The position numbers were made by a program, and so were the translations under genes. The notes beneath the pieces are model-generated. The model was not told where the DNA came from. It did not search any database and saw only the letters and a program-made list of their open reading frames with translations. 37,084 nt of DNA from Spirochaetaceae bacterium (lineage in GTDB: Bacteria > Spirochaetota > Spirochaetia > DSM-27196 > SLAA01): NCBI GenBank assembly GCA_007695055.1, contig REEM01000092.1:1-37084 (forward strand). The letters run 5' to 3'. Positions within the stretch are counted from its first letter, which is position 1; each line of letters begins with the position of its first letter. This document shows, piece by piece, positions 13,777 through 34,572 of this stretch.

Positions 13777-13798
13777 AGACCAAGTTATCCCTTGGTCT
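13777..13798. terminator. Bidirectional terminator-like hairpin between convergent genes
   Basis: AGACCAAG-TTATCC-CTTGGTCT, perfect 8-bp arms, overlapping the stop of the RbsC-like gene. Confidence 0.6.
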
Positions 13799-14834
13799 TC
13801 GATAGCCCAAATGTAAATGCCAACGCCGCAACCAGCACTACGCCCTTCACGAAGTCCTGCACGTAATATGGCATGTTCATCATGGAAAGGCCGTTCAGTA
13901 GCATACTAATGAAGATAGCCCCGACAATGGTGCCAAAGGGATTCGGACGTCGAACACCCAGTACCGCAAAGCCGATCAAGGCAGACCCAATTGCATCCAA
14001 TAGCAGTGTGCCGCCGGAGCTAACATCTCCCCGTCCCACCCGCGCAGCCAAGACAATTCCGCCTAATGCGGCTATGGTGCCGGATAGTATGTAAGCCATC
14101 ATGCGATAAGTGTTAACCTTCGCCCCGACAAGGCGAGCGGCCTGCGAGTTGCTTCCAATCGCGTAAAAAACTCGTCCCCAACGGGTCAAGGAGAGAATTA
14201 CAAACACCAGGATCGCCACAATGAGCATAATGGCAACCGCAGTCGGTACAATCCCAAAAAGACGCCCCTGACCCAGAAACAAGAAGTAGTCCCTAAAACG
14301 GCCGGGGGCTACTACGCCACCAGCCAGCACCGCACCACGTCCTATCGAGCGACCACCGGAAGGAATGAGTTGAACACCTTGAACCAGGAACATCATTCCC
14401 AAGGTCGCAAGGAGATCTGGAATTTTAACGCGTACAATCAGAAAGCCGTTGATAGCGCCTATACCGGCCCCCAACATGAGGCATACAAGAATCGCCACAG
14501 TACCACTCGCGTCCAGAACAACCATGACGTAGGCCGAGATCATGACCGACAACGCGGCAACGGATCCAATGCTGAGATCAAGTCCGTCAATGACCAAAGG
14601 AAAAGTAACTCCCAGAGCTAGGATTCCATAGACTGTAGCTCCAAGCAAGATCGAAAAGAGATTGGCTGGACGCCAGAAGACTGGGTTCCACCATCCAAAA
14701 AACAAGAACAGGGTCGCCATAACAATGAGAAAGCCATAGCGAATTGCAAAGCGCTTAAAGCGCTCAGAATTTGGCCGCCTCCGAGCCTGATCTACACTAC
14801 CGGTCGGTACTTCCGGAACCGTACTCGAACTCAT
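13785..14834 (-). CDS. RbsC-type sugar ABC transporter permease
   Basis: 'GVTFPLVIDGLDLSIGSVAALS', 'AIGSNSQAARLVGAKVNTYRMMAYILSGTIAALGGIVLAAR'. Confidence 0.9.
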   Translation of the reverse strand: MSSSTVPEVPTGSVDQARRRPNSERFKRFAIRYGFLIVMATLFLFFGWWNPVFWRPANLFSILLGATVYGILALGVTFPLVIDGLDLSIGSVAALSVMISAYVMVVLDASGTVAILVCLMLGAGIGAINGFLIVRVKIPDLLATLGMMFLVQGVQLIPSGGRSIGRGAVLAGGVVAPGRFRDYFLFLGQGRLFGIVPTAVAIMLIVAILVFVILSLTRWGRVFYAIGSNSQAARLVGAKVNTYRMMAYILSGTIAALGGIVLAARVGRGDVSSGGTLLLDAIGSALIGFAVLGVRRPNPFGTIVGAIFISMLLNGLSMMNMPYYVQDFVKGVVLVAALAFTFGLSKTKG

Positions 14835-16393
14835 ACTGCCGACTCCTCTCTTTCTTGTATTTCTTTCTCCTGCGCAACAAGCTGCAACAGTTTATCCCGA
14901 TCAATGTCTTCATACTCCTGCTCGCCTATGATCGCACCGTTGTTCATCACGACGATCCGGTCGGCGACCTCAATCAGTTCATCAAGATCGGTGGCAATGA
15001 TGATTGCAGATTTATCGCCAATGCTTGTTCGCAGGTACTCGCCAATATCATGGCGGGAACGGATATCAACTCCCTGAAAGGGTTCATCAAGAATTACAAG
15101 GTTATACTTCTCAAGAAGCCAACGAGCCACCACAACTTTCTGTTGATTCCCGCCGGAAAGACTGTCCATCTCGGCCTCTGGCCCCTCGCACTTAATGCCC
15201 ATGGCGCCAATCATTTCCCGACATCGCTTGATCTCGGAGTTCACATCCATTATTCCAAGGCGATCAAAGACTCGGAGGAAAGGCAAGGTCATGTTCTGAC
15301 GTATGTTGAACAGCGGGACTACCGCGTTCTCAGCGCGATCCTCCGGCACATAAAAAATTCCGGCCCGAATAGCCTCGCTCATGTTTCGAGGGTGGATCAC
15401 CTTGCCTGCCATTCGGATTTCTCCCGACATCGCCTGAGTAATACCAAAGAGCACCTGTGCCAGTTCGGTCTTCCCTGCCCCTATCAGACCGGTGAGTCCA
15501 AGTATCTCGCCCTTTCGCACCTTAAGATTCACAGGCGGGGCGCCCTCAGCAACCACGACATCCCGCAGCTCCACCTGAGTATTCGTGTCGTCTATACCTC
15601 TTTCTCGATCCGCCAAAAAGCTGTGCTTTGGGATTTCTCCAACCATGGCGGTAACCATGTCCTTGACCTGGAATGGCCGTTGGAGAGTCTTTGCCAGCTT
15701 GCCATCTCGGATAACTATAACTCTATCAGCGATTCGTCCGATCTCATGCAGTCGGTGAGAGACGTACAGGATAGAGACACCAAGTTGCTTGAGGCGATCA
15801 AGCATTGCAAAGAGCCGCTCGGATTCTTTATCGGACAAGGAGGAGGTTGGCTCGTCCAAGATAAGCAGGCGTGGCTTAATTGCCAGCGCGCGTGCTATTG
15901 CTATCATCTGACGTTCGGACTGCGGGAGTTGATCCACAGGGGTATCCAGATCAATCTCTAAGCCCATGGTTGCTGCCACCTCCCTGGCTTCAATCCTCAG
16001 CGCCTCTTTTTTGTAGAACAAAGGCAGTCCAGGATTAAGCAACTTTGCCAGGGTCAGGTTCTCGTAAACGGTCATTGAAGGTACCACACCCTCGTTAATG
16101 ATCTGATGTACGGTGGCAATTCCGTTGTCGTAGGCCGCCTTTGGGGTATGGAACTGAACCTCCTTTCCTTCTACCAGAATCTGTCCTTCATACTCGGCGT
16201 GATAGCCGCAAATGATCTTGATCAGGGTCGATTTACCGGCGCCATTTGCGCCGACCATCGCAAGCAACTCGCCGGGCTTGAACTCTACCGAGACACCGTC
16301 AAGAGCCCGTGTTACCCCAAAACTCTTCCCTATATCACGTACTTCAAAGAGAATCTTTGCGTCCGACACATCTTGCTCCTTCACTGCCGTCAT
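14831..16393 (-). CDS. RbsA-type sugar ABC transporter ATP-binding protein (two NBDs)
   Basis: Two ATPase domains: '[18 protein letters not shown]', '[32 protein letters not shown]', '[10 protein letters not shown]', '[15 protein letters not shown]'. Confidence 0.92.
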
Positions 16394-17442
16394 TCACCAA
16401 AGATCTTGTGAAGATTCTCTTGATAAGGCGCTCGAATAAGCCCTCTGTCGGTGATGATTCCAGCCACCAGCTCGTGTGGAGTCACGTCAAAGGCGGGGTT
16501 CCGAACCTTAATGCCCTCGGGAGCGGTCCTTCGCTGTCCGAAATGCGTTACCTCATCCTCACCTCGCTCCTCAATAAAGATCTCCTTTCCGGTTGGAGTA
16601 GAGAGGTCTACAGTAGACGCCGGGCAAGCAACATACACCGGAATCTTGAAGTACGCGGCCAGAACCGCCACACCCAGTGTTCCAATTTTGTTAGCGACAT
16701 CGCCGTTAGCGGCAACGCGATCGGTACCAACAATGACCATATCTATCAAGCCTTGTTGCATCACAAAGGCTGCCATGTTGTCCGTGATCGTGGTCACATC
16801 GACCCCGGCGTGCAAGAGTTCCCAGGCGGTAAGCCGTGAACCCTGCAGCAAAGGACGGCTTTCATCTGAGTACACGCGGAAGGAAACGCCACGTTCTTGA
16901 GCAAGGTACATTGGCGCGGTTGCAGTCCCGTACTCGGATGTTGCCAGTCGGCCCGCATTACAGTGAGTCAGAAGACCCATGCCATCCTTAATCAGCTCAA
17001 CCCCGTGTTCACCGATCTTCCTGCACAGCTCGATGTCCTCTGCGTGGATCTCCTCCGCAGTCTTGGTCAGGCACTCGAGGAGCTCGGCGCCGCTCTGGCC
17101 ACCTGAGGTCTCAACACTTTTCACCGTACGTTTGAGTGCCCAACTCAAGTTCACCGCAGTCGGCCGGGAGCTGTCCAGATACGCGGCTTTCTCCTGCAGT
17201 TCCGCGAGAAAAGCCTCGCGATTCAGGTGGCTTTTGTCTTGCATCGCCACCACAAGTCCGTAGGCTCCTGCAACGCCAATCGCCGGAGCTCCGCGAACCT
17301 TCAACTGCTTAATTGAGTCCCAGACCTGCTCAACGCTCATCTGCTCCTCCACCTTCACTGCAATTGGCAGCAGAGTTTGGTCAAGCAGGTAGAGTTTTCC
17401 ATCCTTCCATGTGATGCTTTTCACTTGCTTATGATCTAGCAT
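16390..17442 (-). CDS. mtnA: S-methyl-5-thioribose-1-phosphate isomerase (MtnA)
   Basis: '[19 protein letters not shown]', '[22 protein letters not shown]', '[17 protein letters not shown]', '[19 protein letters not shown]'. Confidence 0.9.
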
Positions 17443-17624: not shown

Positions 17625-18701
17625 TTAGCGAGGCATCCAGGGCGAACGAGCAGCGTTTGAGGTTGCAAACTCCGGAAATGCATCCATGAGTTCTTCCATG
17701 TTCTGAACACCGGCCTCGACCAGCATCTCGGAAGTGAAGATCATTGGTTCAACCAGAATGTCTTGCGGAACGTTCTCGCCGACCATTAACTGAGCAAGAG
17801 CTCGTACTGAGGCGGCCCCCATCTCGGACGGGTTAACTGCCGAGGTCATTACCCACGGACTATTGGGCTGCGTCATGATTTCTATGTCCTGCGTCGAGAT
17901 ATCAATGCTGTAAACCTTCACGTTGTCACGCCCAATCTCTTCAAGAGCAAGTACAATACCCTTAGCAAACTCATCATAGGGAGCAAGGTAGGCCCGAATA
18001 TTGGGGTTGGCTCGCAGCACCGCGGTTGCCTGCGCCGCGTTTTGCGTAGAGATTGGTGAATCAAGGGTACCGGTCTGCGCTACAATTCGCACCCCAGACT
18101 CCCGCGCAACAACTTCCTGAATTGGGCCATCGCGCTTATCAAGCGGAAGAATTCCAGCAACACGGACATAGGCCATATCTACCTGTCCGTTGAAGTCGCT
18201 CACAATGGCTTCAATTGCATTGCGCCCATGTTGGGGGTCGTTCTGCGCGATCTGTGGAATGCGAGGGTTCTCAAGGTCTACGTCAAAGGCAACAACCGGA
18301 ATACCTGCGTCAAGTGCCTCTTGCGCAGGCCCGACCATAGTCTCGGTGAGGCCATGCTGAATAACAATACCGTCGACACCCAGGTTGATAGCCTGGCTCA
18401 CAGCGTTCGCCTGCGACTGCGCATCGGTATGCCGCCCAAGCACGGTAACGCGCATCCCGAGCAGTGCGGCCTGCTGCTCAACACCGGCGCGGTACATCTG
18501 CATGAACTCCCCTTCCTGCAAATAGCTCAGGTGAGCAATATGCAGTTGCCGGCCTGTGCTACCATCGAAAGGTGCCGGTGCACCAGGGATATCGGTCACT
18601 GGCCCTCTGCGGGCTTCAGCGCCGCCCCCAGCAAACAGGGTACCCGCCCCAACGAACATCAAAAGAATAAGAAAGAATCCTACTGAACGTCGCATCGCCA
18701 C
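17625..18701 (-). CDS. RbsB-type periplasmic sugar-binding protein
   Basis: Signal peptide; 'AVSQAINLGVDGIVIQHGLTETM', 'AGIPVVAFDVDLE'; clustered with RbsA/RbsC-like genes. Confidence 0.88.
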   Translation of the reverse strand: MAMRRSVGFFLILLMFVGAGTLFAGGGAEARRGPVTDIPGAPAPFDGSTGRQLHIAHLSYLQEGEFMQMYRAGVEQQAALLGMRVTVLGRHTDAQSQANAVSQAINLGVDGIVIQHGLTETMVGPAQEALDAGIPVVAFDVDLENPRIPQIAQNDPQHGRNAIEAIVSDFNGQVDMAYVRVAGILPLDKRDGPIQEVVARESGVRIVAQTGTLDSPISTQNAAQATAVLRANPNIRAYLAPYDEFAKGIVLALEEIGRDNVKVYSIDISTQDIEIMTQPNSPWVMTSAVNPSEMGAASVRALAQLMVGENVPQDILVEPMIFTSEMLVEAGVQNMEELMDAFPEFATSNAARSPWMPR

Positions 18702-18862: not shown

Positions 18863-20029
18863 TTACCCAGTGGCGGCGAGCTCCTGCTCAACTGCTTCCC
18901 GAGCTGTGATTAAGGCCTCGCTAGCGGTGCATTCACCTCGAAACGCTCTGCTTAACTCGGCGTACAAGGGGGTTATCAAGCTGCCGAGCTTGGGCAAATG
19001 TGGCAGACGCCGTGCTCTTTCCAGCAACTGCTCCTGAGCGGTAAACCACGGACAGCGTTTGCGCAGGGCGGCATCGCGGTAGGTAGATTTCCGAACGGGA
19101 CTGCCAGCATACACCCCTATGTGGCAGTCGACCTCTCGAGAACCGAGATACGCCAGCAGTTCCACAGCATCGTGTTTGTTGGAGGAAGCCGAAAGAACCC
19201 CAAATGACCAGGTAACGTTCCAGGGATACTGCGGGGTTTCGTAAACAAAGTACTCATTGTTCGCGTGCTCTTCGCTAACAATCACCCCGGCTTGCCCTCC
19301 CCAGCTCAGCCCAAATGCGGCCTCACCATTGCGCAAGGCAGCGGCAACTTGCTCGTTTCCATAAGGTGCATGCTTCTTAGAAAGAAAAGCTGTGAGTCGC
19401 AGGTAGTACTCCAGCGCCTCGTGACCTGCGTCCTCGGCAAAGAGCGGTTCGCCGCTCGGCCCAAAACACTCACCACCAAATGAGTACAGGTACGGCAGCC
19501 AATCAAGGAATATCTCACTCGGGGCCACCTTCATGACGACAGGTGCGAGATGTGGGAGCTCAGTTTTGCTCAACCGCTGGGCAAGATCCACATACCGCCG
19601 AGGATCTTGAAGTTCAGCTCTACTCAACAGCTCAGAAGTGGCGCTGTCCGCGTAGACGATATGCCCATCGGTGAAGGACGGCACCAACCAGCTGCTGCCC
19701 TTATACCGCATCTCGGAAGCAATAGCCGGGTGTATATCCTTGGCGTCGAATTCTTCTGTATTGAGCGCCCCATAGTCGTCAAGGGGCTCCAGGTATCCAG
19801 CATTCACAAACTGCGCCAACCATAGGTGCCCGGCAATCATCACAATATCGTAGGCGGGCTTGCGTTCGGCGGCAACCGCAAACAAACGGTCACCGTACTG
19901 TTCCCACGGCAGAACTTCAAACTCCACTGAGATCCCGGACCGCTGCTGAAACGACTCAATAATACCAAGCTGCGGATCGACATAGCCATACACGGCCGGA
20001 TCTCCAACCGCTAGAACCTTAACCGGCAT
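18863..20029 (-). CDS. Family-1 extracellular-solute-binding-like protein without a visible signal peptide
   Basis: 'GIIESFQQRSGISVEFEVLPWEQYGDRLFAVAAERKPAYDIVMIAGHLWLAQFVNAGYLEPLDDY'. Start MPVKVLAVGD directly after AAGGAGATTCAAG, overlapping the DeoR 3' end. Confidence 0.75.
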   Translation of the reverse strand: MPVKVLAVGDPAVYGYVDPQLGIIESFQQRSGISVEFEVLPWEQYGDRLFAVAAERKPAYDIVMIAGHLWLAQFVNAGYLEPLDDYGALNTEEFDAKDIHPAIASEMRYKGSSWLVPSFTDGHIVYADSATSELLSRAELQDPRRYVDLAQRLSKTELPHLAPVVMKVAPSEIFLDWLPYLYSFGGECFGPSGEPLFAEDAGHEALEYYLRLTAFLSKKHAPYGNEQVAAALRNGEAAFGLSWGGQAGVIVSEEHANNEYFVYETPQYPWNVTWSFGVLSASSNKHDAVELLAYLGSREVDCHIGVYAGSPVRKSTYRDAALRKRCPWFTAQEQLLERARRLPHLPKLGSLITPLYAELSRAFRGECTASEALITAREAVEQELAATG

Positions 20030-20855
20030 CTTGAATCTCCTTCTCAGCCCTGGACACATCTGCAGCGCCAACGGAACTCGCGTCCCCACACGACTTGCCG
20101 CAACGAAAGCCAAGGTCATGCGCCTCAAGAGCAACTCTCCATTCCTCGGAGAGCTCGCAGTCGGTTATCATGAGATCAAAGTCCGACAGGTCAGCAATGT
20201 GGACAAAGGATGTGACGTCGAACTTTGTAGCGTCGGCCACCAAGATAGAGCTTTCGGCCTGGTGCATCATTTGCTTCCTGACCTCGGCCTCTCTTTCGTT
20301 TGCGTCGGTTACACCATGGGTGCGGTGCACACCGTCACAACAGATGAAGGCCTTGTCGGCAAAGTAGGTTGAAACAGCTTCTTCGGCCGCCTTTCCGACC
20401 GTGGTGAGGGAGCTTGGCCTCAGGGTGCCTCCGGTACAGATCACCTTCACACTACCTGCTGCGGCGAGAGCCTCGGCAACCTTGAGCGCGTTGGTAATAA
20501 CAATAAGGTTCTTTTTCTCGCACAAATGTTCTGCAATATGAATTGCGGTGGTACTTGCATCTAGAAAAACCGTATCGCCGTTGCGCACGCACTCCGCCGC
20601 AAGCGCCCCAATCATGTGTTTAGCCTCGACCTGCACATGACTGCGCAAAGCGACCGGAACTTCGCGGTGCATTCCGGCGTTTATGAATGCTCCCCCGTAG
20701 GTCTTAGACAGTAGGCCGTTACTTTCCATCTTGGTAAGGTCACGCCGAATCGTCTCTTCGCTCACTGCGAAACGCCGAGAGAGATCCGAGACGGTAACGC
20801 TCCCCGACTCCCGCAACAATTCTATAATGCTTTGCCTACGCTCTACCGCTAACAC
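20019..20855 (-). CDS. DeoR-family transcriptional regulator
   Basis: HTH 'RRQSIIELLRESGSVTVSDLSRRFAVSEETIRRDLTKMESNGLLSKTYGGA'; sugar-phosphate-sensing domain 'DTVFLDASTTAIHIAEHL'. Confidence 0.92.
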   Translation of the reverse strand: MLAVERRQSIIELLRESGSVTVSDLSRRFAVSEETIRRDLTKMESNGLLSKTYGGAFINAGMHREVPVALRSHVQVEAKHMIGALAAECVRNGDTVFLDASTTAIHIAEHLCEKKNLIVITNALKVAEALAAAGSVKVICTGGTLRPSSLTTVGKAAEEAVSTYFADKAFICCDGVHRTHGVTDANEREAEVRKQMMHQAESSILVADATKFDVTSFVHIADLSDFDLMITDCELSEEWRVALEAHDLGFRCGKSCGDASSVGAADVSRAEKEIQDAG

Positions 20856-20910: not shown

Positions 20911-22119
20911 CTATTGCGTCACTGCAAACTTAAGCACTGTCTCTACCGCTTCATCAATGTTTTGATACTCTTCCCTACGCATGATAAACTCGCGCGCGGT
21001 ATCAAGCACCGATATCTGTGCCCGAGCACGAACCTCAGCATCTGGAATGGAACGAATATCCTCCACCTGAGCTAGCCCAACAATTCGGCGTGTCATTTTG
21101 CAACCAGCATAGCCAATCGAGTCAGCGAGCAGGCGTTTCATATAGTCTTCAAGGTACTCGGGATTCATCTCAAGCGGTGTCTTCACGTGCTCATGCCACA
21201 GCGAACGAAACTGCTCCTCAAAAACGTACCAGATCTCCCGGAAACTTCGGAGAAGGTACTCCCGGAAAACTTCACGTTCGTGTTTGTCCTTCTTATGCCA
21301 CAGCTGGGAGGCATGGTTTAGCACTAGATTCCCTATAATCGCGCCGACGTCAAAACCCATTGGGCCAAAGAAGCCAAACTCCGGATCAAAGGCCTTGGTC
21401 GACTCAGCTGTGACAAAAACGCTCCCGGTGTGAAGATCTCCGTGAATAAGGGCCTGCCCCTGCGTCATGAACTTCTCTTTGAGTTTTGCAACCTCTCGCT
21501 TGAGTGCTGCATCTTTCCAGTTCTCCTCTGCCCGCTCTCGAATCTCTGGATCAATCTTGTTGTTGGCCGCGTCAAAATACGGGTTGGAAAACACCAGATC
21601 CTCGGTGATTTTGCAGAGATCAGGATTAACGAAGCTCTTCTGTACCACCTTCTTCTTGAGAGGATCCATCCCAAGGTCGGAGGTGAAGAACAGGGAGCGC
21701 GCGAGAAACTCGCCAATGTGCTCGGCAAGCTTTGGGTATACCGTTCCCGCAATAAGGCCTTTACGAAGCACAATGTGGTCCGAAAGATCCTCCATTATAA
21801 TTGCGTACATCTCGCGGTCATAGCTGAAGATTTTTGGGGCCAGTCCCGGGCAGTTGCGGTCATGCAGCACTAGCATTTCGCTCTCAATGCGCGCACGGTC
21901 AAGCGGAGCCACAATGCTGTCGTCAATACGGGCGTGAGGCAAGGACTGCTTAATTATGACACTCGCGCCTGAGCCCTTGGTTTCGCTAACGCGAAAGACC
22001 ATGTTCAGATTCCCGTCGCCTATTTCTTTACACTCGAGCTGCGAATCGGCCGAGAAAACCTTCGTCTTGGCACGTGCAAACTCCAGTGCCGTCTTCTCAT
22101 TCAGGGTTGCATACTCCAT
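20911..22119 (-). CDS. mtnK: 5-methylthioribose kinase (MtnK) family sugar kinase
   Basis: 'LECKEIGDGNLNMVFRV', 'ALIHGDLHTGSVFVTAESTKAFDPEFGFFGPMGFDVGAIIGNLVLN', 'IGYAGCKMTRRIVGLAQVEDI'. Start MEYATLNEKT after AGGAGG. Confidence 0.9.
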   Translation of the reverse strand: MEYATLNEKTALEFARAKTKVFSADSQLECKEIGDGNLNMVFRVSETKGSGASVIIKQSLPHARIDDSIVAPLDRARIESEMLVLHDRNCPGLAPKIFSYDREMYAIIMEDLSDHIVLRKGLIAGTVYPKLAEHIGEFLARSLFFTSDLGMDPLKKKVVQKSFVNPDLCKITEDLVFSNPYFDAANNKIDPEIRERAEENWKDAALKREVAKLKEKFMTQGQALIHGDLHTGSVFVTAESTKAFDPEFGFFGPMGFDVGAIIGNLVLNHASQLWHKKDKHEREVFREYLLRSFREIWYVFEEQFRSLWHEHVKTPLEMNPEYLEDYMKRLLADSIGYAGCKMTRRIVGLAQVEDIRSIPDAEVRARAQISVLDTAREFIMRREEYQNIDEAVETVLKFAVTQ

Positions 22120-22232: not shown

Positions 22233-22336
22233 ACATAAAACCACCCCATAACCACCCACTCGTTTAGATTATCATGGCAAATTTCGGCAGTCAAACATTA
22301 TTGTTGCATTTGTGTCGTTTTATCGTGGTTTTATGT
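22233..22336 (-). promoter_or_regulatory. Putative mtnK promoter (TTGACT-N17-TAATCT) bracketed by a perfect 12-bp inverted repeat
   Basis: ACATAAAACCAC at 22233-22244 and GTGGTTTTATGT at 22325-22336; sigma70-like promoter on the minus strand between them. Confidence 0.6.
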
Positions 22337-22352: not shown

Positions 22353-23159
22353 TTATGAGCCCCGTACCCGGCGCACAATCTCAGCCACCAGTGCTTCGAA
22401 TTCGGATGTGCCCGGACTGAAGTCTCTGCTTACCGAGCGTTCGTTATTCATCTCACACTGTGGATTGGCCGCACCGGACGCAGAGCCAGACGGCCTGTAG
22501 CTACAAGCCTGGGCCTGAGTCTTGATTCCGTAGAACTCTCGCAGGCCCTGCAGGCGGTGAATGTCTTCGGAGGAGAACGGTTTGGCACCCCCAAGCGAAT
22601 GAGCGTAGATCAAGATCTCGGCGTTGTGCTCAAGCTTTTCCAGCTTCTTGAAGGCATCGGAGAGGGTCGCGCCCACCGTGACGCTCCCGTGGCGTGCCAA
22701 CATCACCGCATCACTGCGGGCAATGAGATCGCTCATTGAGTTCGGCAGGTCCTCGGTGCTTGGGGTTGCGTACGGTGCCACTGGCACATCGCCTAAGGTG
22801 AGCACCACCTCCGGCAGAATGCAGGTATCTAGACGCACCTCGGCAATGGTAAAGGCAATGGCTTTGGGAGGATGGGCGTGGATCACGGCCTTCACGTCCT
22901 CGCGTCGTTGGTAAGCCTCAAGATGAACCTTATACTCGGTGGAAGGACGCCTTGAATCGCCAATGGGGTTGCCTTGAAAATCAATGACGATGGGTGCCTC
23001 GACCGTCATGTCCTCTTTGCGTAAGCCGGATGGAGTAATGAGAACACGATCCTCGCTAAGCCGAATAGAGAGATTCCCGTCGGTTGCACACACAAGACCT
23101 TGCGCATGAACCTTGTGGCTATAGTAGACAATCTGCTTGCGTGCTTCAATTTCGTTCAT
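22353..23159 (-). CDS. Class II (fuculose/rhamnulose-1-phosphate-type) aldolase with C-terminal encapsulation-peptide-like helix
   Basis: 'GLVCATDGNLSIRLSEDRVLITPSGLRKEDM', 'VHLEAYQRREDVKAVIHAHPPKAIAF', 'LARHGSVTVGATLSDAFKKLEKLEHNAEI'; tail 'SEFEALVAEIVRRVRGS' after a low-complexity linker. Confidence 0.88.
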   Translation of the reverse strand: MNEIEARKQIVYYSHKVHAQGLVCATDGNLSIRLSEDRVLITPSGLRKEDMTVEAPIVIDFQGNPIGDSRRPSTEYKVHLEAYQRREDVKAVIHAHPPKAIAFTIAEVRLDTCILPEVVLTLGDVPVAPYATPSTEDLPNSMSDLIARSDAVMLARHGSVTVGATLSDAFKKLEKLEHNAEILIYAHSLGGAKPFSSEDIHRLQGLREFYGIKTQAQACSYRPSGSASGAANPQCEMNNERSVSRDFSPGTSEFEALVAEIVRRVRGS

Positions 23160-23170
23160 CTTTCACTCCG

Positions 23171-23470
23171 TCACGTAGCTATGCTGTTGTCATTCATCTT
23201 AGAGTTGAGCTCAACCGAGTCGATAATCCCAATAATCAACTCCTGCAGAGGCGGGTTTTTCACACCTAGTACCGCGGCTGCCGAGTTTCCTTCCTTTAAG
23301 ACAAGCACGTACTCACCAATACCAGCCTGCACGGTGTCCACTGCCAGGAGTTCAACCCCTGTAGGCGTGAGATCCGGCAAACAGACCTCAACAACCATAA
23401 GAGTACGCCCCTCATAGACCGGATGCTTTACGGTTGCGGTTACCGTTGCTCGAACGAGCCCTATCTTCAT
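23171..23470 (-). CDS. BMC-P (EutN/CcmL) pentameric shell vertex protein
   Basis: MKIGLVRATVTATVKHPVYEGRTLMVVEV...AVDTVQAGIGEYVLVLKEGNSAAAVL. Confidence 0.88.
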   Translation of the reverse strand: MKIGLVRATVTATVKHPVYEGRTLMVVEVCLPDLTPTGVELLAVDTVQAGIGEYVLVLKEGNSAAAVLGVKNPPLQELIIGIIDSVELNSKMNDNSIAT

Positions 23471-23805
23471 TGTGCAGCCCCTTCGGGCTGAACCACGCCG
23501 TCGGGCTGTGAGACACGATCGGGCGCAACGCGGTCAGGAATATCTCCATCCAGAAACTCTACAATACCCACAATTGTGGCATCCACCGGCACAAAGTTCC
23601 TGGGCAAGGCCAATGCGGCCTCTCTTCCGTCCACCATGTACACACGCTCGCCAACTCCGGCTTGGGTTCCGTCACAAGCGACAATTGCTTTGCCGGAAGG
23701 AGATCCGTCGGAGAAGATCGGTTGCACCCAGAGCAACTTGACACCCTCAAGGCCTTCATATTTCACAGTTGAAACCAGCGAGCCAATCACTCTTCCAAGA
23801 AACAC
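23467..23805 (-). CDS. BMC-P (EutN/CcmL) pentameric shell vertex protein with C-terminal extension
   Basis: MFLGRVIGSLVSTVKYEGLEGVKLLWVQP...ACDGTQAGVGERVYMVDGREAA; extra tail DIPDRVAPDRVSQPDGVVQPEGAAQ. Confidence 0.88.
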   Translation of the reverse strand: MFLGRVIGSLVSTVKYEGLEGVKLLWVQPIFSDGSPSGKAIVACDGTQAGVGERVYMVDGREAALALPRNFVPVDATIVGIVEFLDGDIPDRVAPDRVSQPDGVVQPEGAAQ

Positions 23806-23814
23806 AGGACTCCC

Positions 23815-24102
23815 CTACTTTCGGAAGACGGTCTCGTCGCCGATGGTGAACGAGTCGACAATTGCCATAATGACGGCATCTACCGGACGTTCCTTGGTTA
23901 TAGTGGTTTGACGAGCAGAGGAGCCCGCTGCGTACAACACAACCTCCCCCTCTCCAGCACCGACGGCGTCAACCGCAACGACGAAATCACCAAGGGGCTT
24001 CATGCGCTCGCTCAAACGCTCAAGGATGAGAAGCTTAGCCCCGGTAAGCGAGGCTTCTTTCTGAGTGGCCACCACGGTTCCAGCAACACGCGCGAGATTC
24101 AT
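23815..24102 (-). CDS. BMC-P (EutN/CcmL) pentameric shell vertex protein
   Basis: MNLARVAGTVVATQKEASLTGAKLLILE...AVDAVGAGEGEVVLYAAGSSARQT. Confidence 0.92.
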   Translation of the reverse strand: MNLARVAGTVVATQKEASLTGAKLLILERLSERMKPLGDFVVAVDAVGAGEGEVVLYAAGSSARQTTITKERPVDAVIMAIVDSFTIGDETVFRK

Positions 24103-24207: not shown

Positions 24208-24555
24208 CTATACCTGGTGGCGATCAAGTACCTTGCTGATAACGGCTTCCAGATTGGCTGGCTTGCTCCCTAAATGGGTGACCACAACACGCGTCACAAT
24301 CTCTGCCAGTTCAGCTTTGTTGCTCGCCGCAGCTTGATTTCCTGACGCACCAGAGGGCACATTGGGCGGGCTTGGACTACTCTCACCGTCCAGGACTAAG
24401 CGCAGGCCCCGCTCGCGGGCGCGCTCACGCCCTACATCGGTGACGACGGTATCGCAATCTACTCGCATCTCGCTCTGTCCCTGTTCAAGGAGTTCGTCTA
24501 CATCACGTGCGGTGATAAATCGTTTCTTTCCCATGGTTTCCTCCCGGCTCTTCAC
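24208..24555 (-). CDS. EutQ N-terminal-domain-like protein lacking the cupin domain; amphipathic helices at C-terminus
   Basis: 'KKRFITARDVDELLEQGQSEMRVDCDTVVTDVGRERARERGLRLVLDG' resembles the EutQ/EutT N-terminal module; C-term 'AELAEIVTRVVVTHL...ANLEAVISKVLDRHQV'. Confidence 0.65.
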   Translation of the reverse strand: MKSREETMGKKRFITARDVDELLEQGQSEMRVDCDTVVTDVGRERARERGLRLVLDGESSPSPPNVPSGASGNQAAASNKAELAEIVTRVVVTHLGSKPANLEAVISKVLDRHQV

Positions 24556-24560
24556 CGACT

Positions 24561-25184
24561 CTACTTGGTGCCGTCGACTGCGTTGATCGCTGTCACTGCC
24601 GCATCACGTGCGGCAAGAATGTCGGCCTCGGTTCCGGCCATCCATAGTCTGCCGAATACGCCAACGCCGGTAATATGCATAAGGTTCACGTCTGCAGCCT
24701 TTTCGGCCTCGTTGGCGGCAAGGTTAATGTAGGCCGCTGGCTCACACTCAAGTACCAACATAGACTGCCCCGGCACCAACATCATTCCTCTGTTAAAGCG
24801 ATTCAGCAACTGAGACTGATAGGGACTCACGTTGGTAATAATCTGCATGGACGCAATTGACGGTTTCTTGCGCGCGGAGATATCGACTCCCAGTTCACGG
24901 AGCACGACATCGCCAGCCTCAATTACGTCCTCCTGCGACATTGAGTGCAGCTCGAACATTCCGTATTGACGTTCTACAATCTGGGCTCCGGGTCGGGCAC
25001 TGGTGGCTTTGACGGCAGCATCTACAACTCGAAAGACCCAGTTACCCGGAGCCATTTCAACATAGAGACTTGCCATACCCTCAATTGGGAGGTCGCCCTG
25101 GGTAATGCTCCCGACAAAGGCGGCGTACTGAGGCTGCATTCTATCCAGATAGCAGTAAGCGCGTAGTTGAAAGTCGTCGGTCAT
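24561..25184 (-). CDS. BMC-T (tandem BMC-domain) trimeric shell protein
   Basis: 'LRAYCYLDRMQPQYAAFVGSITQGDLPIEGMASLYVEMAPG' and second half 'VLECEPAAYINLAANEAEKAADVNLMHITGVGVFGRLWMAGTEADI'. Confidence 0.82.
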   Translation of the reverse strand: MTDDFQLRAYCYLDRMQPQYAAFVGSITQGDLPIEGMASLYVEMAPGNWVFRVVDAAVKATSARPGAQIVERQYGMFELHSMSQEDVIEAGDVVLRELGVDISARKKPSIASMQIITNVSPYQSQLLNRFNRGMMLVPGQSMLVLECEPAAYINLAANEAEKAADVNLMHITGVGVFGRLWMAGTEADILAARDAAVTAINAVDGTK

Positions 25185-27822: not shown

Positions 27823-29397
27823 TCACGCCTTGAGCTCCTTCAGCACCTCACGAACAATCTGAGCGATATTTTCTGCTGAGTAGCCTGTTCCTGCCCCGTT
27901 CGAGCCAGTCACGTTCGAGGCAGACAGGCTTGAAGCAGACACCGGACCCGCTGTGTTGGACGATTGTGCTACCACACCCTGGGCAAGGCTATAGGCCTCT
28001 GGGGGCGGTGCCCCTGTCTCGTAGGCCAGCCGCTTGATATTGAGCAGATGCTGAACACTAATATTATCACTGACAATAGACCCGCCGATTCCGCCGGGGG
28101 CTAGAGTCATTGAGGGCATGAGTCCAGTCGTAGACCCCACCGCGCCCATAGAAGCCCAGGTATTCACAATAATGCGAAAGGCTGGCTTTTCTATGCCAAA
28201 GGCCAGAATCACTTCCTCGTCGCGGGCATGGATCACCAGTGAGTGCCCGTCACCACCGAACTTTAGCAGCTCAATACAACGCTCACAACCGGCATGCCAG
28301 TCCTTCTCCACGTAGAAGCCTAAGACCGTGGTGAGTTTCTCACGGCTTAAGGGGTAGTCCTTTCCAACACCCTTCAGATCTGCCACCAACACACGAGCCC
28401 AACCTGGAACGCTAATTCCTGCCAGCTCAGCGAGTGCTTGTGGCGTCTTACCTACGCTGCGCGGATTGATGGCCCCAGAGGGATCAAACAAACAGCGCGC
28501 AACGGCCTGCTGCTGATCGGGATCCAGCCAGTAGGCTCCGTTCTTTTTCATTTCAGCCCGGAGCTGCTCGGCTATGGGCGCATCTGCTACCACCGCCTGC
28601 TCGGTTGCACAAATGACCGAACAGTCAAAAGCCTTGCTATTGACGATGTCGGAAGCTGCTTTAGCTACATCTGCGCTCCGGTCTACATAGACCGGCACGT
28701 TGCCCGGCCCCACCCCAATTGCAGGTTTGCCTACGCTGTGTGCAGCACGAACCATGGGAGTTCCACCAGTCGCCAGAATGAGTGACACCGCGTAGTGCCG
28801 CATGAGTTCCTGCGTACCCTCCAGGCTGAGGTTCTCTATGCAACTCACCAGACCCTTGGGCATGCCCGCCTTCTCGCCCGCTTCGGCCATGATGCGCACT
28901 GTTTCCAGGCAGCATTTTCGAGCCGAGGGATGGGGTGCAATGATGGCGGCGTTGCGAGCCTTGACAGCAATGAGCACCTTGTACATTACGGTCGATGTCG
29001 GGTTTGTTGATGGCACCAAACAGGCCACCACACCCACCGGCCAGCCAATTTCAACAATCTTCTTTTCTTCATCGCGGCGAAGCACACCAACCGTGGGTGT
29101 GTCCTTGATTGAGTCCCACACGCCCTGGCTTCCGAGCTTGTTCTTGAGCGCCTTGTGGGCGGGTACCCCGTAACCGGTCTCTTCATGAGCCATTTGTCCA
29201 AGACGCTCGGAGTTCCGGTAGGCGGCTTCGGCCATGGCAGCACAAATACGGTCTACCTGCTCCTGAGATGTATGGAAAAAGGCCCTTTGAGCCTCGCGTG
29301 CCTCAACCGCAAGTCGCCGCGACTCCTGCACCGAAACCAAGTCGCGGTCATACCCGGTGTATTCCTGCATGTCTCTCTCCTTCGCTTGTGTACCCAT
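27823..29397 (-). CDS. eutE: CoA-acylating acetaldehyde dehydrogenase EutE with C-terminal encapsulation peptide
   Basis: 'GWPVGVVACLVPSTNPTSTVMYKVLIAVKARNAAIIAPHPSA', 'NSKAFDCSVICATEQAVV'; C-term 'SAENIAQIVREVLKELKA'. Confidence 0.93.
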   Translation of the reverse strand: MGTQAKERDMQEYTGYDRDLVSVQESRRLAVEAREAQRAFFHTSQEQVDRICAAMAEAAYRNSERLGQMAHEETGYGVPAHKALKNKLGSQGVWDSIKDTPTVGVLRRDEEKKIVEIGWPVGVVACLVPSTNPTSTVMYKVLIAVKARNAAIIAPHPSARKCCLETVRIMAEAGEKAGMPKGLVSCIENLSLEGTQELMRHYAVSLILATGGTPMVRAAHSVGKPAIGVGPGNVPVYVDRSADVAKAASDIVNSKAFDCSVICATEQAVVADAPIAEQLRAEMKKNGAYWLDPDQQQAVARCLFDPSGAINPRSVGKTPQALAELAGISVPGWARVLVADLKGVGKDYPLSREKLTTVLGFYVEKDWHAGCERCIELLKFGGDGHSLVIHARDEEVILAFGIEKPAFRIIVNTWASMGAVGSTTGLMPSMTLAPGGIGGSIVSDNISVQHLLNIKRLAYETGAPPPEAYSLAQGVVAQSSNTAGPVSASSLSASNVTGSNGAGTGYSAENIAQIVREVLKELKA

Positions 29398-30083: not shown

Positions 30084-31031
30084 TTACGCGTTCTCGCCTG
30101 AGATTTTCAGGCGGAGCTGGACGCCACTGGCCTGATACTTCAGATACTTCTTCACCTGCTCAACAATGAATGCACCGGCCTCAAGCGGGTTGGTACCTCC
30201 ATTGCGGGTAATCATACAAAAGGCATCGCGGTCGCCGTCGGTTTTACCCTTTGTCGGCTTATAGCCCATGTAGGCGCTCATTGCATCGGCAACACCCAGT
30301 CCCGGGCGTTCGCCAATGAGCATGACTACAACATCGGCCCCGACTATATCGTTCACCGAGTTCATAATTCCCACCCGCGCATACTTCACAAAGAAGGGCG
30401 TGCCGCTACTAATGCCCGCAGATTTCAGACCCTGCTCAATGACCGGGAGAATCTCGTCCACATTGTTGCGAATAGCGGCGGCACTCAGTCCGTCACCAAC
30501 CACAATTTGAACCTGAGGATTCTTGGTGCATTTTTCAGCGACAAGCTTTGCACCCTCATCCGAGAGGAGCCGCCCAAGGTCAGGGCGAATAAGAAACTCC
30601 TGCTTGTCCGAGACACGGCTTTGTACCGTAAACAGCCCAGCCTTTTCTACGACCTCGGGTTCCACCTCACTGTGTATTGCGTCCTGCGTCACACCGTGGT
30701 CGGCCTGAAACAGAAGAAGCGAACTTGTGGTGGGGCGTGAGCCCGCGCGGCCAACCGCAATACGTGCTCCGGTCGAGGCCTTGAGATTTCGCAGCCCGTC
30801 CATATCCATGGGATTCTTCACCCCTACCTGTGCACGAGCTTCCTTGGTGGTGGGGTCTGGAAGATCCAGCACCAATCCGCCAACGGCCGCGCCGCTGGGC
30901 GCAGTCGCTGAGCTGGCCCCGGATGCACCGTTTGAACCCGATCCGGCTGCAGCGGAGGCTCCACTGCCCAGTTCCTTGAGGACCGCTTGTACGATTGCCT
31001 CAATCTGGTCTTTAGTGTTGTCCATATCCAT
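30084..31031 (-). CDS. eutC: Ethanolamine ammonia-lyase small subunit with N-terminal encapsulation-peptide-like helix and long linker
   Basis: N-term 'DQIEAIVQAVLKEL' plus G/A/S linker; core 'ARIAVGRAGSRPTTSSLLLFQADHGVTQDAIHSEV', 'GERPGLGVADAMSAYM', 'MITRNGGTNPLEAG'. Confidence 0.95.
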   Translation of the reverse strand: MDMDNTKDQIEAIVQAVLKELGSGASAAAGSGSNGASGASSATAPSGAAVGGLVLDLPDPTTKEARAQVGVKNPMDMDGLRNLKASTGARIAVGRAGSRPTTSSLLLFQADHGVTQDAIHSEVEPEVVEKAGLFTVQSRVSDKQEFLIRPDLGRLLSDEGAKLVAEKCTKNPQVQIVVGDGLSAAAIRNNVDEILPVIEQGLKSAGISSGTPFFVKYARVGIMNSVNDIVGADVVVMLIGERPGLGVADAMSAYMGYKPTKGKTDGDRDAFCMITRNGGTNPLEAGAFIVEQVKKYLKYQASGVQLRLKISGENA

Positions 31032-31036
31032 CCTCC

Positions 31037-32404
31037 TTAGCGCTGCAGAAAGAACGAGGCGTCACCGGCCTTCGCCGTAAGCACACCGTTTTCTATGAGT
31101 CCGTGTTTTTCCATCCAGCACTCAAACTCAGGCAGCGGCCTCAGTCCCATGAGATTCCGGAGGCTCATTGCGTCGTTATAGCTGGTACACTGATAACTGA
31201 GCATTGGGTCGTCGCCCAAGGGCACACCCATGAAGTAGTTACAGCCCGCAGCCGACAGCAGTACCGCAAGGTTCTCAATGTCGTTCTGAGTCGCAAGCGC
31301 ATGGTTGGTGTAGCAGGCGTCAACACCCATTGAAACCCCGGTGAGTTTCCCCATGAAATGGTCTTCCAGTCCGGCGCGAGTGATCTGCACCGAGTCAAGC
31401 AGGTACTCAGGACCGATGAAGCCAACCACGGTGTTCACCTGAAAGGGCTCATAGCGCTTGGCAAAACCATACTTGCGCGCCTCAAGTGTGACCTGGTCGG
31501 CTCCATGATGTGCATCTGCAGAGAGATCCGCCCCCTGGCCGGTTTCAAAATACATGTAGTTTGGCCCCGGAGTCACGCAATACTTCTTTGCCATGTCATA
31601 GGCCTCGTCGAGCATGTTGACATTGACACCAAAACTCTCGTTGGCTGTTTCGGTACCGGCAATGCTCTGGAAAATAAGCCCGGCCGGAGCGCCACGCTTG
31701 ACCGCATCCATTTGGGTCGTTACATGCGCCAAGAGACAGTTCTGCGTAGGAATTTCCCAGCGCTCAATGACCTCCCAGGTCATTTCCAGCAACCGGGTCA
31801 CACTCGCGAGTGAGTCGTCTACCGGGTTAATGCCAATAACGCTGTCACCGGAACCAAGGCTGAGGCCCTCATAGGTCTCGGCCCGGATACCCTCAACCGA
31901 GTCGGTTGGGTGGTTCGGCTGATTGCGCGAGGCCAAGGTACCAGGCAGCCCAATGGTGTTGTTGCAGTGAGCGACAATGCGAATCTTACTGGCGCCGAGC
32001 ATGAGATCCATGTTGGACATGAGTTTTGCAACCGCAGCCACCATCTCTGAAGTAAGTCCACGCGAGATGCGGCGAATCATGGAGCCGTCGGTTGTGTCAG
32101 CAAGAATCCACTCGCGGAGCTGCCCAACGGTCCAGTTCTTGATCTCTTCATAGATGGGAAGATTCACCGCGTCCTGAATGACACGGGTTATCTCGTCCTC
32201 CTCATACGGCACTACCGGATTCTCCCGGAGCGCCCACAGCGGCAGTTCGGCCAGCACAAACTTAGCCGCCATACGCTCAGAGGCAGTCTCGGCGGCAATT
32301 CCGGCCAGTTGGTCTCCTGACTTCAGCTCGTTTGCTTTAGCCAGCAGCTCCTTAATACTCCGGAATTGGTAAGTTTCACCAAACAGCTTGGTTTTCAGGG
32401 TCAT
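31037..32404 (-). CDS. eutB: Ethanolamine ammonia-lyase large subunit
   Basis: 'RGLTSEMVAAVAKLMSNMDLM', 'TIGLPGTLASRNQPNHPTDSVEGI', 'GLSLGSGDSVIGINPVDDS', 'YFETGQGADLSADAHHGADQVTLEAR', 'MGVDACYTNHA'. Confidence 0.97.
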   Translation of the reverse strand: MTLKTKLFGETYQFRSIKELLAKANELKSGDQLAGIAAETASERMAAKFVLAELPLWALRENPVVPYEEDEITRVIQDAVNLPIYEEIKNWTVGQLREWILADTTDGSMIRRISRGLTSEMVAAVAKLMSNMDLMLGASKIRIVAHCNNTIGLPGTLASRNQPNHPTDSVEGIRAETYEGLSLGSGDSVIGINPVDDSLASVTRLLEMTWEVIERWEIPTQNCLLAHVTTQMDAVKRGAPAGLIFQSIAGTETANESFGVNVNMLDEAYDMAKKYCVTPGPNYMYFETGQGADLSADAHHGADQVTLEARKYGFAKRYEPFQVNTVVGFIGPEYLLDSVQITRAGLEDHFMGKLTGVSMGVDACYTNHALATQNDIENLAVLLSAAGCNYFMGVPLGDDPMLSYQCTSYNDAMSLRNLMGLRPLPEFECWMEKHGLIENGVLTAKAGDASFFLQR

Positions 32405-32461
32405 AAGCTCAACTCCTTAGCCGCCCCATTTTGGGACATGTCCCGCAACGTTCACAGGGCG

Positions 32462-33913
32462 TCAGCGATAAAACACCAGCGTCTTAATAGAGAGTGGCAC
32501 TACACGACCGGCAAGTATTGGCTCGCCAATATCAATGAAGTCCCCTTCTCCCAGTCCCACCTGATCTATACTCACAACGCCAAGATCCGGAGCCACGGCC
32601 TTAACCGTTTGTCCAAGACTCTGGGCATAGTCCTGTTCCAGAATGAGCACCAAAGGCGCTCCCGGCCTGAGCGTTTGCGCCGCAAACTCCGACAATGCGT
32701 TTGCGGTCGTCGAGAGCATGGCGTAACTCATGTCCTCCGGCAGATCCAAGGCCAGGGCAAAGCCAATCTCACGGGTATGCGCGTCCCACCGTGTTATGGC
32801 GAGGTTAAGCATTTCCAACACCCGCGTGTGATCAGAGAAGTCCTGTTCACCAAGTCGGGGCTGAATCACGGCCAGGTTCCGAAGTGGCAGAATACTGCCG
32901 TCGGTCCAGATCGTGCTCCCGCTTAGGGTTATGGTCTGACTTGCGGCACCAAGCACCGTGGCCCTGAGCGTTTCATCCGGTGGGAGGATCTTGAGCTCAC
33001 GTAGCCGCGGGTTGCGCCGCAAGGACTGTGCAAAGAGCGGGCCGACATCGTTATGCACCGCAATTTCGGCCAGTCCTTCAATTTCTATTGGCCGGTAGTA
33101 GTAGTGCGCCACCCCGCCGGAGAAGAACACCACTGTTGAGTCCTCTGCCCCAATGAGTGGCGGACTTAGCTGCAACTTCTCACCCAGACTGCTGAGCCGC
33201 CCCTGCGCCAGATCCGCAGTAAGTTCGGCCATGCAGTCGCAGAACTCCCGCAGGGCAGATATTTCAGGCTTGAGCCCCACCTCTATGGGCAGACTCAGGT
33301 GCTCAACAATCATGCGACCTGGTCCAGCCACATGACGCACGGTACCGCTTGTCTGTTCAAGGACAATCTGACGCCCGCCCACCGCAAGGCCGGAAGACGA
33401 AAGGTGCCTCCCCATCCGGAAGATCGCCGCGTTCGCGGTTCCTCCCCCAATGTCGATATTGGTCACCTGCGCGTAGTTCTTGGCAGAGTACGCAGCAGCG
33501 CCTGAGCCGCGCCCGGCAATCTGCGCCTCAACGTTTGGACCGGCAACCGTAACCACAAAGTCGCCAGCGTAGCCCGAAAGGGCGTCCAGCATGATGTCGG
33601 CGTTCTTGGTGCGAGCAATCTCTCCGGTAATGATTACCGCCCCGGTCTCCACCTCTTTTGGGTTGATTCCGGCGTTTGCGTACTCACGTTCGACAATTGC
33701 TACCAAGGCATCGGCGTCGATTTCGTCCGGTGAAAGCAGAGGTGTAAAACTAATGCCACTTTCATAGAGCACCGAGCGCGCCGACACCTCAATCCGGGGA
33801 ATCTGCCCGCCGCTTGCCGCGTTTCGCAACTGCAAACGGGAGAAAACTACCTGAGTTGTAGTGGTGCCGACATCAATTCCGACGCTCAGCAGCTCACGGC
33901 CGTCACTGGACAT
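32462..33913 (-). CDS. eutA: Ethanolamine ammonia-lyase reactivating factor EutA
   Basis: 'LLSVGIDVGTTTTQVVFSRLQLRN', 'AVIITGEIARTKNADIMLDALSGYAGDFVVTVAGPNVEAQIAGRGSGAAAYS', 'NIDIGGGTANAAIF'. Confidence 0.93.
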   Translation of the reverse strand: MSSDGRELLSVGIDVGTTTTQVVFSRLQLRNAASGGQIPRIEVSARSVLYESGISFTPLLSPDEIDADALVAIVEREYANAGINPKEVETGAVIITGEIARTKNADIMLDALSGYAGDFVVTVAGPNVEAQIAGRGSGAAAYSAKNYAQVTNIDIGGGTANAAIFRMGRHLSSSGLAVGGRQIVLEQTSGTVRHVAGPGRMIVEHLSLPIEVGLKPEISALREFCDCMAELTADLAQGRLSSLGEKLQLSPPLIGAEDSTVVFFSGGVAHYYYRPIEIEGLAEIAVHNDVGPLFAQSLRRNPRLRELKILPPDETLRATVLGAASQTITLSGSTIWTDGSILPLRNLAVIQPRLGEQDFSDHTRVLEMLNLAITRWDAHTREIGFALALDLPEDMSYAMLSTTANALSEFAAQTLRPGAPLVLILEQDYAQSLGQTVKAVAPDLGVVSIDQVGLGEGDFIDIGEPILAGRVVPLSIKTLVFYR

Positions 33914-33924
33914 GTATCACTCGG

Positions 33925-34221
33925 TCAGGCTTTTCCGCCGCCGGTGCTCGGAAGGATCTGCTCAACATCGCCGTGGGGCCGTGGAATCACATGCACGCTG
34001 ACCAACTCACCAACACGCTGTGCTGCCGCCGCACCGGCATCTGTAGCTGCCTTTACCGCACCAACATCGCCCCTGACCATAACGGTAACCAAACCGCCGC
34101 CAATGTACTCCTTGCCAATCAGCTGCACATTTGCAGCCTTAACCATAGCATCTGCCGCCTCAATAGCTCCGACAAGGCCCTTGGTCTCAATCATTCCGAG
34201 TGCGGTTAACTGCATTGCCAT
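33925..34221 (-). CDS. BMC-H hexameric shell protein (EutM-like)
   Basis: '[81 protein letters not shown]'. Confidence 0.95.
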
Positions 34222-34281
34222 AACTCCCTCCGATAGTGTGTGTCGTTTCTTGGCGCCATTCCGACGCCTCTCCGTGTGTTC

Positions 34282-34572
34282 TTATTCCTTGCGAAATGTA
34301 GTCTTGTGATTCAATTCTAATGAGTCCAGAATTCCAACGATAGCGGCATCTACGGCCGCATCCACAGTGGCCTCGGTGTGCCGGGCCGAGCTACCCTCTG
34401 CCACAAAAACCAGCTCACCCTCACCCGCCCCGACGGTGTCGACCGCTATAAAGGGTTCGCCATAGAGTTCGTTCTCGGGAGTGGCTTTCTGCACCACCAG
34501 AAGTTTGCGGCCTACGAGCTTGCCTTCCTTAACGGTTGAGACCGCACTACCAACAACCCTTGCAATGATCAT
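34282..34572 (-). CDS. BMC-P (EutN/CcmL) pentameric shell vertex protein
   Basis: MIIARVVGSAVSTVKEGKLVGRKLLVVQKATPE...AVDTVGAGEGELVFVAEGSSARHT. Confidence 0.93.
   Translation of the reverse strand: MIIARVVGSAVSTVKEGKLVGRKLLVVQKATPENELYGEPFIAVDTVGAGEGELVFVAEGSSARHTEATVDAAVDAAIVGILDSLELNHKTTFRKE

Follow-up and report, generated by a model that had tools for sequence, protein, structure and literature searches.

The locus described here raises the question of whether a class II aldolase encoded beside microcompartment (BMC) genes is itself a cargo of the organelle. In the window, that is, the whole 37,084-nucleotide stretch of Spirochaetaceae contig REEM01000092.1 that was analyzed, the aldolase gene lies at 22353..23159 on the minus strand, as do the shell, EUT, orf115, kinase, isomerase, DeoR and Rbs-type transporter genes discussed below. 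The original prediction held that the aldolase carries a tail resembling an encapsulation peptide (EP) and that the aldehyde-releasing step occurs inside the shell, with kinase and isomerase outside. We consider it highly likely that the tail is a C-terminal EP packing the aldolase with EutE and EutC in a microcompartment, and that MtnK and MtnA are cytosolic; this is the best explanation of the data taken as a whole.

The aldolase and its C-terminal extension

The aldolase is a protein of 268 aa (PF00596, E=4e-46), with the Pfam Aldolase_II domain at residues 9-183. Its best solved sequence match is DrdA of B. thuringiensis (6btd), and Foldseek groups its core with fuculose-1-phosphate aldolases (4c24) and the same DrdA (6btg/6btd). 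As expected of an aldolase of the DHAP shunt, it has the class II fold with the metal site, residues E75, H94, H96, and H157 being invariant in the alignment of relatives, and it is encoded with an MTR/5-deoxyribose kinase and isomerase, MtnK and MtnA, both above curated cut-offs. Judged by sequence, it is a probable 5-deoxyribulose-1-phosphate / 5-methylthioribulose-1-phosphate aldolase. A search of its own genome at E<=1e-5 gave no second match.

The catalytic core common to this protein and its untailed relatives stops near residue 212, and a 56-residue C-terminal extension remains (22356-22523). The predicted variable linker followed by a terminal helix was confirmed: the open reading frame ends as quoted, and the AlphaFold2 model, built with 18 relatives (mean pLDDT 87), shows disorder and then a helix. 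The linker (residues 213-250; 22410..22523) has pLDDT <50 at residues 225-249 and varies among relatives in length and sequence, in agreement with the poorly conserved flexible linkers of EPs. The terminal segment (residues 251-268; 22356..22409, helix codons 22356-22403), with the sequence EFEALVAEIVRRVRGS, is modeled as a helix at 251-267 with pLDDT of about 76, consistent with the short (15-20 aa) terminal amphipathic helix of an EP.

The tail was scored on a profile that combines 17 EPs from the non-aldolase cargoes of these loci, among them those of EutC, EutE, aldehyde dehydrogenases, and Pdu-like proteins. It reaches 9.5 (P = 0.0013 versus shuffles of the same tail) and ranks 21 among 678 termini of 339 proteins, where the higher ranks are nearly all BMC cargo; the tails of related aldolases reach 22. 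The hydrophobic moment, calculated for this single sequence, is weak (P = 0.15). The peptides of EutE and EutC originally quoted are both present, ENIAQIVREVLKELKA at the C-terminus of EutE (27826-27873) and DQIEAIVQAVLKEL near the N-terminus of EutC (30969-31010); the pairwise identity of the window tail is weak to EutE (P = 0.09) as well as EutC (P = 0.86). The EutE of a genome from the same family ends in ELVREIVRRVLTEL, which has 8 identities with the window tail (P=0.001). A profile match alone is not discriminating, because the last helix of MtnK also scores 9.6. The window tail is by itself moderately distinctive, and the comparison with relatives is decisive.

Co-occurrence of the tail and shell genes among relatives

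Among 96 related aldolases, with shell-gene adjacency defined as a distance within 5 kb, 22 are tailed with shell genes, 7 tailed without, 1 untailed with, and 66 untailed without them. Tailed proteins are thus encoded near shell genes in 22/29 cases and untailed ones in 1/67; conversely, the tail is found in 22 of the 23 aldolases with a shell gene and 7 of the 73 without (Fisher P about 1e-14, for rows that are not independent). Many loci had flanks of only 1.5 kb, and shell adjacency is therefore under-counted. For five of the seven tailed aldolases without nearby shell genes (L032, L089, L091, L092, and L101), shell genes occur elsewhere in the genome. Two of them, considered as tailed non-BMC aldolases, were rejected, the L032 genome having a BMC locus and the L089 genome BMC-P genes elsewhere. 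In the draft genomes of the other two, L033 and L146, a PF00936 shell gene was not found, nor was PF03319 in that of L033. With these two drafts as tailed exceptions, the tail is absent from non-BMC homologues, as is characteristic of EPs: for 66/67 untailed aldolases, the surrounding 5 kb are free of shell genes. An exception to the rule is an untailed class II aldolase immediately after a BMC-P gene (L038:9442-10696).

In shell loci of the same order (L027, L029, L030, L031, L050, L052, and the window), every aldolase terminates in the helix LV.EI[VT].RV, retained in 7/7 tailed members of the clade, and the linkers before it differ in sequence and very strongly in length. Untailed paralogues that adjoin mtnA but no shell genes (L028, L055, L056, and L058) end 10-13 residues past the core. 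The alignment with non-BMC aldolases, proposed originally as a check, favors a locus-specific tail, as the untailed paralogues, 61-76% identical to the window aldolase, are those away from shell genes. Two genomes (G001 and G015) each encode one aldolase with the tail, inside a shell locus, and one without it, elsewhere; such natural pairs within one clade are matched controls for EPs. In two genomes of one genus, an untailed aldolase is naturally fused to MtnA (L054:5344-7089 and L057:565-2313).

BMC-linked aldolases with an EP-like helix of this kind were also found throughout the order and in other spirochaetes, a deltaproteobacterium, and Bacillota. On its firm branches, the phylogenetic tree requires the tail to have been gained or lost at least six times, and untailed rows fall within groups of tailed ones. 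Of the phylogenetically independent pairs on well-supported branches, 3-4 agree and 0 disagree (P=0.25).

The same trend was observed within a single pathway. In the DHAP shunt (DrdK/DrdI/DrdA or MtnK/MtnA/Ald2), 5-deoxyribose or methylthioribose is converted to DHAP and an aldehyde (PMC6079011, PMC10986504), and we took as the DHAP-shunt subset those aldolases that adjoin the methylthioribose genes MtnK/MtnA. Seven of its eight tailed members are in shell loci, and the genome of the eighth (L101) contains EutA, EutB, and a BMC gene. Nearby shell genes accompany 0/13 untailed members (L028, L040, L054-L058, L156, L162, L163, L170, and those of G681 and G456); the exact P for 8 tailed versus 13 untailed would be 5e-6 if rows were independent. 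Four genomes (G001, G002, G005, and G015) encode untailed spirochaete aldolases, yet have a BMC at another locus, and thus the tail follows the locus; a shell encoded somewhere in the genome is not enough. A search for the PF00936 family in the non-spirochaete genomes G681, G456, G470, G588, G839, and G496 gave no match, and in the phylum Bacillota (399 genomes) shell genes were found in 0/19 short flanks of MtnK loci. A spirochaete of another family has an MtnK-MtnA-aldolase cluster with a strong EP tail (L118:5193-8228 and L119), EutA, EutB, and a BMC gene being located on another contig.

Taken together, these comparisons make it very probable that the aldolase tail is an EP.

Kinase and isomerase

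MtnK (20911..22119; TIGR01767, 496 bits versus a cut-off of 275) and MtnA, the 5-methylthioribose-1-P/5-deoxyribose-1-P isomerase (16390..17442; TIGR00512, 444 bits versus a cut-off of 279), have no extension at either terminus compared with solved non-BMC homologues, ending with 2olc and 2yrf, respectively. The statement that neither carries a helix plus linker is therefore correct. The missing extensions fit a cytosolic kinase and isomerase, which is compatibility and not proof. The C-terminal helix of MtnK was considered as a hidden EP in view of its profile score and rejected; it belongs to the ordinary kinase fold, and in alignment it coincides with the end region of MtnK from B. subtilis (2olc).

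Organization of the microcompartment loci

As in EUT microcompartments, EutB, EutC, EutE, and shell proteins are encoded in one locus of the window. It includes EutE acetaldehyde dehydrogenase (27823..29397; TIGR02518, 587 bits, slightly under the cut-off of 620), EutC (30084..31031; NF003971, 269 bits, cut-off 230), and, in the remainder of the EUT block, EutB, EutA, BMC-H, and BMC-P (31037..34572). A CcmP-like BMC-Tdp shell protein (24561..25184; NF053796, 248 bits, under the cut-off of 340) is followed by a 115-aa protein, orf115 (24208..24555), with an EutQ-like start (a weak NCBIfam EutQ match) and a helical C-terminal tail, KAELAEIVTRVVVTHLG. Three BMC-P (EutN-type) vertex proteins (23171..24102; PF03319 for the 23815-24102 gene) lie directly upstream of the aldolase in the same module, and their counterparts adjoin the aldolase in L003/L086 and L052. 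The genome of the window has a second EutB on another contig (C26; L082:4509-5924), with no recognised shell genes in the 7.5 kb covered there.

Where relatives have no aldolase (L076 and L079), the EUT block closes with the homologue of orf115, the EUT locus L079 of G029 ending at this gene. In G001, such an EUT locus (L076) coexists with a separate locus, L050, containing BMC-P genes, the tailed aldolase, MtnK, DeoR, MtnA, and a transporter. We infer from this gene order that the window combines an EUT block and an aldolase/MtnK/MtnA module, joined after orf115.

Three spirochaete loci (L030, L031, and L052) are stand-alone BMC loci without EutABC. They encode BMC-Tdp, BMC-H, BMC-P, an aldehyde dehydrogenase, BMC-T, two BMC-P, the aldolase, MtnK, DeoR, a sugar-binding protein, MtnA, and an ABC transporter; in L052, MtnK gives a weaker match and is placed after MtnA. 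The aldehyde dehydrogenases of L029 and L052 have an N-terminal EP. The genomes G003, G007, G008, and G015 have no EutB at all. Two adjacent genes flank stand-alone DHAP-shunt BMC loci (L031:80-1734, L052:16506-18049), both belonging in L052 to the CoA-transferase family PF01144; these perhaps substitute for a phosphotransacylase.

Proposed pathway and alternative explanations

In the proposed pathway, cytosolic MtnK and MtnA would make the ribulose-1-phosphate from 5-deoxyribose (or methylthioribose) that is either imported or salvaged, and the phosphate would then pass into the shell. Sugar phosphates might enter through the CcmP-like BMC-Tdp, a plausible door of the kind proposed for SPU (PMC8217296). 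The amphipathic helix on its flexible linker would hold the aldolase beside EutE and EutC, where it would cleave the ribulose-1-phosphate to DHAP and either acetaldehyde or methylthioacetaldehyde. Close copies of the aldolase away from the organelle genes lack the tail, and release of the aldehyde therefore probably takes place within the shell. Acetaldehyde is the product handled by EutE, which would oxidize the aldehyde to the acyl-CoA while DHAP exits to glycolysis.

The tail might instead be a cargo-cargo adhesion helix that binds EutE or other core enzymes, or aggregates the aldolase, so that the aldolase is still inside while the helix is not a shell-docking signal. Its resemblance to the tail of EutE in a related genome points in this direction, and the two roles are not separable by sequence; however, the tail is retained in L052 and L029, whose dehydrogenase differs in type and has an N-terminal EP, which makes one fixed partner less likely, and we regard the adhesion role as possible though doubtful. 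An encapsulated aldolase could also act on fuculose- or rhamnulose-1-phosphate, with the lactaldehyde chemistry of PVM/GRM5, and not on 5-deoxypentoses. Such a substrate is unlikely: FucA is among the closest folds, and some tailed aldolases of Bacillota adjoin BMC genes in the absence of MtnK/MtnA, but the aldolases of the window and of related loci are accompanied by MtnK and MtnA, and nothing in the window was recognised as an isomerase or kinase of fucose or rhamnose. Least probable of all is an inherited idle extension, or a helix with another role such as oligomer stability. The tailed L033 and L146, from drafts without detected shell genes, would suit it, but across the tree the tail state has changed repeatedly in step with shell linkage, the helix, unlike the linker, is conserved, and the untailed paralogues are alike in all else.

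With the tail read as an EP, we incline slightly to a broader proposal: an undescribed spirochaete BMC type for 5-deoxypentose (DHAP-shunt) catabolism, with the EP-tagged aldolase as its signature. Here it would be merged with an ethanolamine compartment, one shell being fed aldehyde from two substrates, and it might recycle the 5'-deoxyadenosine shed by its own B12 lyase. Ethanolamine ammonia-lyase as the source of 5'-deoxyadenosine is speculation, drawn from the general behavior of B12 enzymes.

Comparison with known systems

EP-bearing class II aldolases are already known in other BMC types. The ACI microcompartment has a class II aldolase (pfam00596) with a C-terminal EP, PVM and GRM5 use the same family (PMC8217296), and the GRM5 fuculose-phosphate aldolase has been described as encapsulated (PMC6325248). 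The aldolase family within a BMC is thus the same, whereas the substrates in those systems are fuculose or rhamnulose phosphate or unknown, the window aldolase is partnered by MtnK and MtnA, and the window-type shell locus is of the EUT or stand-alone spirochaete type. The DHAP shunt shares its kinase, isomerase, and class II aldolase with the window; DrdK accepts both 5-deoxyribose and methylthioribose, and DrdA, which uses Glu76, makes DHAP and acetaldehyde and prefers acetaldehyde (PMC6079011). In contrast, no microcompartment is mentioned in PMC6079011 and PMC10986504, and DHAP-shunt aldolases without nearby shell genes are untailed. In SPU loci (DeoC aldolase, RpiB), a sugar-phosphate aldolase likewise feeds acetaldehyde to a BMC dehydrogenase, and EUT modules are known both as satellites and merged into the main locus (PMC8217296), but aldolase family and substrate differ from those of the window. 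EUT2 and EUT3 resemble the window in EutABC, EutL, and EutE with a C-terminal EP, and EUT3 in BMC-Tdp (PMC8217296); the window, which is not cleanly typed, adds the aldolase-MtnK-MtnA module with three BMC-P genes.

It is the pathway that looks new: in related spirochaetes, a stand-alone BMC lacking ethanolamine lyase is organized around the aldolase, MtnK, and MtnA together with a sugar transporter and an aldehyde dehydrogenase, and here this module is joined to EUT. In the open-licence papers searched, we found no description joining a microcompartment with methylthioribose, 5-deoxyribose, or mtnK; in A. woodii, a methylthioribose kinase gene adjoins the pdu cluster and was called unrelated (PMC7593272). 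The pathway would extend microcompartments to the salvage of two by-products of SAM chemistry, 5-deoxyribose and methylthioribose, which yield a reactive aldehyde when broken down, and it would give a reason for enclosing that step. One catabolic module of vertex proteins and a tagged enzyme is seen as a stand-alone BMC, as a satellite, or joined to another BMC type.

Transport and regulatory genes

The module of the window also encodes an Rbs-type ABC transporter, comprising a sugar-binding protein (17625..18701; PF13407) and, at 13785..16393, a permease (13785-14834; PF02653) and an ATPase (14831-16393; PF00005), and a DeoR-family regulator (20019..20855; PF00455/PF08220). In the gap between the aldolase and mtnK (22233-22336), an imperfect 26-nt inverted repeat (77%) is a candidate regulator site. 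Beside DeoR lies a gene of the solute-binding-protein family SBP_bac_1 (18863-20134), conserved in L027 and L050; its likely start, MPVKVLAVGDPAVYG, is without an obvious signal peptide, and its product is possibly a cytoplasmic sensor.
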